From the NCBI GenBank assembly GCA_022402445.1, contig JAKRSF010000003.1, positions 62,001 through 126,000 of the forward strand: 64,000 nucleotides of DNA, read 5' to 3'. Origin of the DNA: Cyanobacteriota bacterium (GTDB taxonomy: Bacteria; Cyanobacteriota; Cyanobacteriia; CACIAM-69d). The first letter of the stretch is position 1, and each line of letters opens with the position of its first letter. This document shows, one piece after another, positions 19,221-22,286 of this stretch. The translations under genes were made by a program, and so were the position numbers. A model generated the notes under the pieces. That model ran no database searches, was not told where the DNA came from, and was given only the letters and a program-made list of their open reading frames with translations.

Positions 19221-19297
19221 GACCGTAACACGATTGCCATCGGCGATCGCCCATCCCTTGGGTCACCTTTTTGACCATCCCGTCAGTCTTTCCCCCT

Positions 19298-19780
19298 ATG
19301 AACCTCGACGAACAAATCCAGATTCTCATCAACGAAGCGCCCCAGGACGGCCAAACCCCTGCCCTAATCCAGTCCGTCGCCCCCGTGCTCTCCCACTTCG
19401 GCCAGCAGCTCGGGCGCGATCGCTTCTATGTCCTCCAAACCCTCAATGGCGACTGGGTGCGCACCACCCTCAGCAGCCGCGCCGAGCACGGCCTCGAAAA
19501 AACCGTCATCTACGCCTTCGCCACCCTCGAGGACGCCGGCAATAGCCCCCTTCCCGTCAAGGATCCCCAAGTGCTCGCGGCCCCCATGCCCGTTACGCAC
19601 ATCCTATTTCAACTCATGGCCCTCAAAACCGTCGATAGCCTCGTCTTCTTCACCCGCGCCGGTAACCTCAACCAGGGCACCGAAATTAGCCGCGATGTTT
19701 TCGAGGAAACCATGCGCCAATATTTCCAACAACTGCAAAGCTGGCAGGACGGCGAGGATCCTACCCTCACGATCGCCTAG
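19298..19780 (+). CDS. Conserved cyanobacterial protein of unknown function
   Basis: 160 residues from the ATG at 19298 (MNLDEQIQILINEAPQD). The sequence is soluble, alpha/beta and well-ordered: VAPVLSHFGQQLGRDRFYVLQTLNGDWVRTTL, VIYAFATLEDA, FQLMALKTVDSLVFFTRAGN, and a final helix EETMRQYFQQLQSW. Its composition matches neighbours, so it is native. I do not recognise a named domain. It is divergent from hetZ with a gap of only 77 bases, so the two promoters must overlap or adjoin. Confidence 0.7.
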   Translation: MNLDEQIQILINEAPQDGQTPALIQSVAPVLSHFGQQLGRDRFYVLQTLNGDWVRTTLSSRAEHGLEKTVIYAFATLEDAGNSPLPVKDPQVLAAPMPVTHILFQLMALKTVDSLVFFTRAGNLNQGTEISRDVFEETMRQYFQQLQSWQDGEDPTLTIA

Positions 19781-19894
19781 GGCCGCGATCGCCCAGCCCC
19801 CACAGCACATAACCCCCCCCCCCCAGATCAGCCAACCAGAACCGATATAAAGATATATGTCCCAACCCCAACCCAAGCTCCCTCGCAGCCGATA

Positions 19895-19930: not shown

Positions 19931-21379
19931 ATGTCCGAAGATGTCCGCCAGCAGCTCGCCGCACTCTTTGGAAGCATCACACCCAAAAGTAGCGAAAAAG
20001 AGGTGGAAGATCGGATCGTTGAACCGCTCCTCAAACTGCTCGGCTACGACACCAGCGAATGGGAAAAACAAGCCAAGGTGCAGCGGGCACGCCTAGACTA
20101 TTTGGTCTACACCCACCACGCCGCCCCCGCCCGCTATTACCTCGTCATCGAGGTCAAAGCGCCCCATAAGGATCTCAAGAAAAGCGCATGGCAACTGTCG
20201 CGCTACCTGCGCAAAACCGGCAGCGTCCTAGGGCTATTGACCAACGGCAAAGAATTTAAAATCTTCTATAACTACTGCGATCGCGTCGAAGAAATCATCA
20301 CCCTCAGCGCCGAAGCAGTCATTCATCGATATCACGAATTTGCCATTCTGCTCTGCCACGGCAGTTGTCAGAAGGTCATGAACGAATTTCAGTACATCCA
20401 TGAATACACCCACAGCCGCATCCTCGGTGGCGTCGCTCGCCTGTTTAAAAAGCCAGAATTAATGCAAATTTCCGATCCCAACATCCCCATTTCCCCCCTT
20501 GAACCCTCGGAGAACGCCATGATCATTACGGTTTTCAATAACAAGGGCGGTGTCGGCAAAACCACCACCACCATCAACCTCGCCGCAGCCCTCAACCGCC
20601 TCGGAAAACGGGTTTTATTAATTGATATTGACCCCCAAGCCAATCTCACCACCGGTGTCGGCATTGACCCCCTCCAGGACATCGAGCACCAGGGCAAAAA
20701 AGACATCACCCACCTGCTAACTGAGGCCAGAACTAAGGCCAGTGACGTGATTATTCGTCGCAAATGGACCAATGTCACCCTGGATGTGGTGCCCTCCCAC
20801 ATTCGCCTGAGCGACATGGAGCCGGTCCTGATTAATACGGTGGATGTGGATCGGGTTTTGGCCAAGAAACTCAAGCCCTGCCGCGAGGACTATGACTACA
20901 TTTTCATTGATCCGCCCCCGTCCTTCGGTAAAGTAAACGCCATTTCCCTCATGGCCTCTGACGCGGTTTTAATTCCAACCCAGCTATCGCCCTATCCCAT
21001 CCGGGCGCTGGAATATGTCATGAACCGGACCTTTTCCATTGACGAGTCGCGGGAGGTGCCGCTGCCCATCCTCGGGTTGGCGGTCAGTATGTATGATCGC
21101 GGTTCCAAGAAATTGGCCCTAGACATGAAGGAATTAATTTATGAATTGCTGTCTAAGGATGGCCGTCGCAAAGATATTGAGCTATTTCCCGATACCACTT
21201 GGATTCCGCGATTGAATGTGGTGTCCACCAGTCCCAATAAAGGGCAGCCAATCTGTGAAGCTGAATTTGATGATGATCTTCAGCAGCGGGAGCGGGATGC
21301 GGCCCTCGATGCGTTCAATTGCTATACCCTTCTCGCTAAGCATGTGTTAAAAGTTTCTGAAGCTATTGCCAGGGCATAG
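19931..21379 (+). CDS. PD-(D/E)XK nuclease-like domain fused to ParA ATPase
   Basis: 482 residues with two domains. Residues about 15-140 resemble the N-terminal nuclease domain of type I restriction HsdR subunits: Glu-rich helix EKEVEDRIVEPLLKLLGY, then Asp56 in RARLDYLV, Glu74-x-Lys76 in LVIEVKAP, and Gln88 in QLSRYLR, a complete PD-(D/E)XK set. After a linker, a full ParA/MinD-type ATPase begins at Met197: deviant Walker A NNKGGVGKTTTT (signature Lys205), LLIDIDPQANLTTGVG, and YDYIFIDPPPSFGKVNAISLMASDAVLIP. The ParB-like gene follows after 7 bases. The fusion is unusual; it may be a partition system with a cutting function or a defence system (inference). An in-frame ATG with GGAG ahead of it at 20519 could give ParA alone. 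Confidence 0.85.
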   Translation: MSEDVRQQLAALFGSITPKSSEKEVEDRIVEPLLKLLGYDTSEWEKQAKVQRARLDYLVYTHHAAPARYYLVIEVKAPHKDLKKSAWQLSRYLRKTGSVLGLLTNGKEFKIFYNYCDRVEEIITLSAEAVIHRYHEFAILLCHGSCQKVMNEFQYIHEYTHSRILGGVARLFKKPELMQISDPNIPISPLEPSENAMIITVFNNKGGVGKTTTTINLAAALNRLGKRVLLIDIDPQANLTTGVGIDPLQDIEHQGKKDITHLLTEARTKASDVIIRRKWTNVTLDVVPSHIRLSDMEPVLINTVDVDRVLAKKLKPCREDYDYIFIDPPPSFGKVNAISLMASDAVLIPTQLSPYPIRALEYVMNRTFSIDESREVPLPILGLAVSMYDRGSKKLALDMKELIYELLSKDGRRKDIELFPDTTWIPRLNVVSTSPNKGQPICEAEFDDDLQQRERDAALDAFNCYTLLAKHVLKVSEAIARA

Positions 21380-21386
21380 GTCAACT

Positions 21387-22286
21387 ATGGATCGCCTAGA
21401 TCGCCAAAGTCGCATCATTGAGTATCTCAAAATTAAGCCGACCCACCACGGCCAGCTTGAGACCTGTTTGCTCGCTATTCCTGATGGAATTAGTTTGAAA
21501 TTTCCGCCTGAGCGCCTGGAGGAAATTCGCACCAGTTTGACGGAGCAGGGGACAAATTTAATTCCGTTGATGGTGCGCCGCAGCGATGCCTATGGGGATG
21601 ACTTTGAATATGAGGTGATCTACGGGGAGGAGTGGTGTGTTGTTGCGCAGGAGTTAGGGATTGATCGCCTGTGGGTGTGGATGTTTGACCTCGACGACGA
21701 GCAGGCCCAGGTGGCGCGGGCGGAGATGGCGCGATTGGCGGGGGCAGAGGTGGTAATTGTTCCGGGTCCAGGGCCGATTCAGCCGACTCCAGATCCGTTG
21801 ATTGATCCTTCTATTGCCCGGCACATGGAAGACCAGCTTCAAAAAATTCAGGAACTCTCGAAACAAGTTGAGCGGGTGGAAACGGCTCTCAAAACCGAAC
21901 CTAAAAAAACTGATCCGACGGAAGTTGTTGTTCCTCAATTAGAGAAGTTTGAGGAGCGCTTTAGTCATCTGGAATCGGCAATTCAAGAGTTGGGCGATCG
22001 CGAGGCTCCCCAACCCACGGTTACGAAGGTCGATAGTCAACCCCTTGCGGAGGTTTTGAATCGGGCCTTGGACGCGATCGCGGCGGGCCAAATCCGTGTC
22101 AATCTTTCCATCGAGTCGGGTAAGGTTATTACTCCGCCGCCGCTACCGATCAAGGAGCCAAGCACTGTCGCGGAACTTAGGGCTGAGCTTCAAGCTCGCG
22201 GCATTGCCTTTTCTAAAAGCGCTAAGAAACCTGAGCTACTGACCCTCTGGGAAAAATGCAAGTCATCAGGAGCTTCTGACGCTTAG
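21387..22286 (+). CDS. ParB-like protein with coiled coil and SAP-like C-terminus
   Basis: 299 residues from the ATG at 21387. Residues about 25-120 look like a ParB/sulfiredoxin-type N domain: FPPERLEEIRTSLTEQGTNLIPLMVRRSD, then FEYEVIYGEEWCVVAQELGI and FDLDDEQAQVARAEMARLAG. The CTP-binding box of ParB (GERRxR) is GEEWCV here. The expected HTH domain is missing; instead there is a Pro-rich linker, a coiled coil (about 148-210), and a C-terminal STVAELRAELQARGIAFSKS segment like SAP or Rho-N DNA-binding motifs. It is probably the partner of the ParA fusion just upstream. The last 21 bases overlap the convergent acyltransferase gene. Confidence 0.72.
   Translation: MDRLDRQSRIIEYLKIKPTHHGQLETCLLAIPDGISLKFPPERLEEIRTSLTEQGTNLIPLMVRRSDAYGDDFEYEVIYGEEWCVVAQELGIDRLWVWMFDLDDEQAQVARAEMARLAGAEVVIVPGPGPIQPTPDPLIDPSIARHMEDQLQKIQELSKQVERVETALKTEPKKTDPTEVVVPQLEKFEERFSHLESAIQELGDREAPQPTVTKVDSQPLAEVLNRALDAIAAGQIRVNLSIESGKVITPPPLPIKEPSTVAELRAELQARGIAFSKSAKKPELLTLWEKCKSSGASDA

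Follow-up and report, generated by a model that had tools for sequence, protein, structure and literature searches.

The locus lies in a window, the whole 64,000-nucleotide stretch of DNA analysed here, which comes from a cyanobacterial genome (G000) of 4.08 Mb in 13 contigs, 99.9% complete. Two genes on the same strand make up the cassette of interest (Table 1). The first joins a PD-(D/E)XK domain to a ParA ATPase, and the second encodes a ParB-like partner that begins after a gap of 7 bases, the TAG stop codon of the fusion gene being at 21377-21379 and the ATG of the partner at 21387. Immediately upstream are two conserved hypothetical genes, whilst downstream there are acyltransferase, GalE-like epimerase and glycosyltransferase-like genes, the last two assigned by sequence inspection. 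The GC content of the cassette is 51-53% compared with 60-69% in the upstream flank, a low value shared by the adjoining acyltransferase gene. Genes for plasmid replication or transfer were not seen among the immediate neighbours of the cassette, and nothing above chance was observed in searches of the loci for local repeats, promoters and terminators. A run of 12 C at positions 19813-19824 of the window, about 107 bases 5′ of the fusion start, is possibly a variable homopolymer tract. The same genome has a separate ParA-ParB pair on contig C3, so the chromosomal fusion cassette probably does not serve bulk segregation.

Table 1. Features of the cassette and its upstream neighbour in the window, and plain ParA genes that adjoin the fusion at other loci.
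Feature	Position	Strand	Remarks
Upstream neighbour, 169 aa, family-conserved	19271..19780	+	Landmark of the site lacking the cassette in G001; outside the system
Fusion gene, PD-(D/E)XK (HSDR_N_2) and ParA ATPase	19931..21379	+	482 aa; coordinates include the stop codon
HSDR_N_2 / PD-(D/E)XK domain, residues 22-113	19994..20269	+	PF13588, E 6.2e-8; BpuSI profile match
Asp56 codon (PD-(D/E)XK Asp)	20096..20098	+	Invariant, 58/58
Glu74-Val75-Lys76 codons (ExK)	20150..20158	+	Glu and Lys invariant, 58/58
Gln88 codon	20192..20194	+	Clade A, invariant; clade B, often Arg/Lys
ParA ATPase domain, residues 197-482	20519..21376	+	AAA_31
ParB-like partner gene	21387..22286	+	299 aa from ATG
ParB_N-like domain of partner	21498..21710	+	PF02195, E 4.5e-5, sub-threshold
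C-terminal HeH/LEM/SAP-like motif of partner	22164..22247	+	PF12949, E 2.9e-6; predicted DNA binding
Plain ParA beside fusion	L046:11256-12191		
Plain ParA beside fusion	L040:6574-7515		
Plain ParA beside fusion	L048:7627-8625		
Plain ParA beside fusion	L136:9626-10507		
Plain ParA beside fusion	others		

The N-terminal domain matches PF13588 with 33.2 bits, above the Pfam cut-off of 25 bits, which bears out the HsdR-N-type domain proposed in the initial annotation; Asp56, Glu74, Lys76 and Gln88 are all encoded where they had been placed. Comparison of a profile of the domain with the PDB identified the nuclease domain of BpuSI (PDB code 3s1s, E 7e-4), with Asp60, Glu76 and Lys78 of that enzyme at the aligned positions, and a weak match to HsdR (3h1t). 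The sequence of the N-domain by itself retrieved nothing from the PDB. The nuclease residues of EcoR124I HsdR are Asp151, Glu165 and Lys167 (PMC3874165). AlphaFold2 calculations from a shallow three-row alignment produced poor models, with pLDDT values of 49 for the full-length protein and 55 for the N-domain alone. For such a model the top entry in Foldseek was a restriction endonuclease domain and HsdR 3h1t came fifth, none of the matches being significant. Given the quality of the models, assignment of the PD-(D/E)XK fold rests on profiles and motifs.

Asp56, Glu74 and Lys76, the putative active-site residues, had been named in the initial annotation before any homologue was known, and homologues have not lost them; the three are invariant first in 25 proteins and then in 58 distinct N-domains that share 18-41% identity with that of the window. 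There are five fully invariant columns in the larger set (Glu22, Asp56, Glu74, Lys76 and Gly101). The chance that three pre-named columns fall among these five is about 7e-5 (hypergeometric), a value that ignores that charged residues and glycine are often conserved anyway. The N-domain is under purifying selection, with dN/dS values of 0.11-0.40; the ParA parts of the same pairs give lower values, 0.05-0.22. With these residues in place the fused nuclease arm is probably active.

ParA ATPases are movers of DNA and other cargo. By its sequence the ParA part of the fusion is complete and Soj-like and belongs in the ParA/Soj family; the initial annotation had described a complete ParA with its signature Lys205. 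The AAA_31/ParA match covers residues 198-372 (Pfam, E 1.1e-48) and the deviant Walker A (KGGVGKTT, with Lys205 and Lys210), Walker A′ (DIDPQAN) and Walker B (FIDPPP) motifs are all present. All 60 ParA rows of the family that were checked keep Walker A intact, and the nearest solved structure is that of HpSoj (6iub, E 3.6e-26).

The description of the second gene product as ParB-like stands with respect to the spacing and a weak ParB_N match that falls below threshold (23.8 bits against a cut-off of 26.3); it does not extend to the HTH, the GERR motif or parS, none of which was found. Some homologous partners match ParB_N above the cut-off and parts of the pattern are retained in the partner alignment. 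No Pfam match to the ParB HTH was obtained for the window partner or the homologous partners examined, and the GERR(xRA) CTP motif is replaced by YG(A/E)(D/E)W or EGHFEYYA, the window sequence being YGEEW. A variable linker with coiled-coil-like matches leads to a tail that depends on lineage, HeH/SAP/Rho_N in some and helix-hairpin-helix (HhH) in others; in the window the PF12949 score of 27.3 is just short of the 28.9 cut-off. A PDB search with the partner profile returned coiled-coil noise and a weak match to Spo0J (1vz0, E 0.1). Searching the window's own genome for parS gave zero sites at 0-1 mismatch, and three sites with two mismatches compared with three for the control; no repeat arrays or iterons flank the loci. 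Centromeres of some other type may nevertheless exist. With neither HTH nor GERR motif in the partner, and no parS or local repeats found, the classical ParABS mechanism cannot be assumed.

The cassette shares with the Soj-Spo0J ParABS system (HpSoj, 6iub) a ParA carrying the KGGVGKT deviant Walker A and a downstream ParB_N-type partner. It differs in the PD-(D/E)XK domain added to ParA, in the SAP/HeH/HhH tails of a partner that lacks HTH and GERR, and in the parS result. Long plasmid ParA proteins (P1 ParA, F SopA, RK2 IncC1) also possess an additional domain at the N-terminus, some 100 residues or longer and generally an HTH (PMC2666795), whereas the additional domain of the fusion resembles a nuclease and has an active site that is invariant. 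The PD-(D/E)XK motif and the profile match are held in common with the N-terminal domain of type I HsdR and with type IIG BpuSI; however, no HsdR translocase, HsdM/HsdS, or methylase or specificity domain was detected in the fusion gene or found among its neighbours, and the motor is ParA. These are known superfamilies in a new combination. Our search, which covered open-access full texts, returned no account of a ParA joined to a PD-(D/E)XK domain.

Homologous fusions at full or near-full length recur among relatives of the window and, as the search for the same fusion and its neighbours across genomes revealed, fall into three clades found on chromosomes and, as distant relatives, on plasmids. 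Clear relatives in clade A, to which the window belongs, occur in about a quarter of 59 genomes searched (own included) and are 39-59% identical. Among 291 cyanobacteria drawn across the phylum, some represented by fragmented assemblies, 14 have an intact clade A fusion; copies in two others are broken (frameshifted in G160, truncated with an internal TGA in G020), although these may be sequencing errors. Clade B, approximately 33% identical, is represented by related ParA genes in 44 of the 291 genomes, mostly as a fusion of 450-520 aa with a minority of ParA alone. Clade C is a third, more distant fusion clade. Directly 3′ of the fusion comes the partner, both in those clade B loci that were examined and, G028 excepted, in the examined clade A loci with enough flank, and the two genes usually overlap or lie within 30 bases of each other. 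We considered whether clades B and C and the plasmid fusions might be separate inventions, but a common operon layout and the same type of partner favour a single family. Phyla beyond Cyanobacteria were covered by the plasmid set, the phage set and a single genome scan limited by pattern. The phage tblastn search found ParA-only relatives, as did scans of viral contigs, which gave no match for the clade A/B N-domain or a clade C protein.

The inheritance of the cassette is irregular. The cassette of G003 is bordered by ilvD on one side and a homologue of the window's upstream neighbour on the other; its congener G001 has both of these flanks 143 bp apart with no cassette between them. The family tree, in which long branches between clades leave the root unsure, groups the window with G003 and Gloeomargaritales-type sequences (support 100/99), whilst G002 and G005, from the window's own taxonomic family, group with other families. 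Such disagreement with taxonomy points to horizontal transfer or differential loss, and the chromosomal copy in the window is most likely an acquired, maintained and dispensable one. Members with ParA alone are nested in clade B and have retained the partner, and at least three changes on the starred branches are needed to place them. The nuclease arm was therefore probably lost repeatedly with retention of ParA and partner, and nuclease-free versions of the positioning pair can be maintained.

The clade A N-domain was found on no plasmid at E 1e-5 in the plasmid set. Distant fusions with the same operon layout do occur on cyanobacterial plasmids, in clade C and a Leptolyngbya boryana-type group, and the D...ExK residues are kept in all five plasmid sequences read. 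Three plasmids of Nostoc sp. UHCC 0870 carry the fusion, two of the partners being annotated as Rho_N proteins, and a 225 kb plasmid of P. galeata carries the fusion operon. The fusion is the only ParA-like ORF on ABRG53g of Pseudanabaena ABRG5-3 (12.6 kb, with CyRepA1) and on pLBA of L. boryana (77.8 kb, NZ_AP014639.1; L219/L220). An annotated terminase gene, present on pLBA together with two tyrosine recombinases, indicates that this element, whose only ParA is a nuclease fusion, may be a phage-plasmid. The plasmid relatives, with two elements on which the fusion is the sole ParA, offer the best, if indirect, evidence for the module as a partition-type system of extrachromosomal elements; on this view the chromosomal copies are acquired relatives, and on small plasmids with no other ParA the module is likely to be the partition system. 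An origin of the module in extrachromosomal elements is plausible. To that extent the initial suggestion of a relic derived from an integrated element is compatible with the data; the part of it that implies a dead copy is unlikely.

How might such a cassette work? The explanation we prefer, which we judge to have an even chance of being correct, is that two genes found on cyanobacterial plasmids and chromosomes form a partition-type cassette whose ParA would carry a catalytically competent PD-(D/E)XK domain. By homology to Soj, ATP-bound ParA dimers would bind nucleoid or replicon DNA non-specifically. The co-translated partner would bind DNA through its SAP/HeH/Rho_N or HhH tail, its ParB_N-like domain contacting ParA to stimulate ATP hydrolysis and release, and the partner-marked DNA would be positioned as a consequence. 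Dimerization of ParA could also pair two nuclease domains on DNA, and the paired domains might then carry out metal-dependent cutting or nicking gated by ATP and the partner. The architecture, conserved active site, intact ParA and partner are in keeping with the original proposal of a system that combines DNA positioning with cutting, here predicted, and the cassette may be a DNA-positioning system that also cuts DNA. Partition and DNA cutting would be linked by a conserved mover whose nuclease active site is invariant. The family allows one to test whether partition systems act in plasmid incompatibility, exclusion or resolution, and the plasmid versions and natural nuclease-free variants of the same clade allow clean comparisons. 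A bolder reading, which we regard as unlikely, has the partition machine policing DNA: ParA-nuclease dimers would scan nucleoid and replicon DNA, the partner would license self through ATP hydrolysis, and partner-free DNA, such as that of rival plasmids or phage-plasmids, would be cut. If so, a single enzyme would perform both partition and replicon exclusion, and its N-terminal effector could be exchanged, PD-(D/E)XK in one form and a nuclease-like domain with a helicase in G160.

The cassette might instead serve primarily in defence or replicon exclusion, the partner marking self and ParA-nuclease dimers cutting incoming plasmid or phage DNA that has no partner complex, as the initial annotation suggested in proposing a role against plasmids or phage. 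We give this a modest, minority likelihood. An HsdR-N/BpuSI-like nuclease in a patchy, horizontally distributed and dispensable two-gene cassette would suit a defence system, the N-domain evolves faster than ParA, and a second ParA fusion in G160 has an SF1 helicase that resembles the Mokosh protein MkoA, although this helicase is absent from the window cassette and was seen in one genome only. The genomic context does not support it. Neighbours are metabolic or housekeeping genes (including those for IlvD, IleRS, 6PGD, ALAD, SAICAR synthetase and glycosyltransferases); among 87 neighbours of clade A loci no enrichment of defence islands was seen, and on this basis we rejected a defence-island context. 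PADLOC models gave P-loop or partial matches only and no known effector model was matched; in addition plasmids themselves carry the cassette and ParA-only members survive without the nuclease.

The N-domain might be a DNA binder that does not cut and has replaced the HTH of long plasmid ParA proteins, to support autoregulation or modulate polymerization. The added domain is of suitable size and suitably placed for this, the comparable region of about 100 aa in those proteins being used for autoregulation (PMC2666795), and the partner has no HTH of its own. We nevertheless consider it unlikely since the residues that remain invariant at less than 25% identity are the metal-binding and catalytic Asp, Glu and Lys, which binding alone would not need. 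Less probable again is a nuclease that nicks or resolves linked DNA (catenanes or junctions) within partition so that copies can separate. PD-(D/E)XK folds include junction resolvases, the cassette is present on both plasmids and chromosomes, and the HhH/SAP tails of the partners suggest structure- rather than sequence-specific DNA binding; the nearest nuclease relatives, however, are of restriction type and a congener dispenses with the cassette. Least credible of all, and in our estimation very improbable, is the view that an integrated plasmid has left behind a dead partition relic. Relatives on plasmids, the broken copies in G160 and G020 and a GC content below that of the upstream flank are what a relic might leave, but the window and most homologues have every ATPase and nuclease motif intact, dN/dS is well below 1 and no genes for plasmid replication or transfer were seen among the immediate neighbours.

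The second fusion in G160 (L135:3082-6974; G160:C1:3472000-3489000) is located beside the frameshifted clade A cassette and has one in-frame TAG. It combines a weak Vsr/MTES_1575-like nuclease match, the MkoA-like SF1 helicase and ParA, and has its own ParB_N/HhH partner. No helicase-ParA fusion of this type was found in eight other genomes of the same family.

In 16 genomes, with fusions of clade A or clade B, a second, plain ParA gene adjoins the fusion, mostly in divergent arrangement, and plain ParA of about 300 aa is present in 78 of the 291 cyanobacteria. At L183:6333-8943 (G073) two sister ParA genes stand in tandem, only one of them having the nuclease domain, and a single partner gene comes after them. 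The clade A fusion of L046 (G043) and the clade B fusion of L061 (G023) share one syntenic site, after an HHL1-like gene that follows IleRS and Ycf66-type genes, which suggests that one cassette type has been replaced by another.
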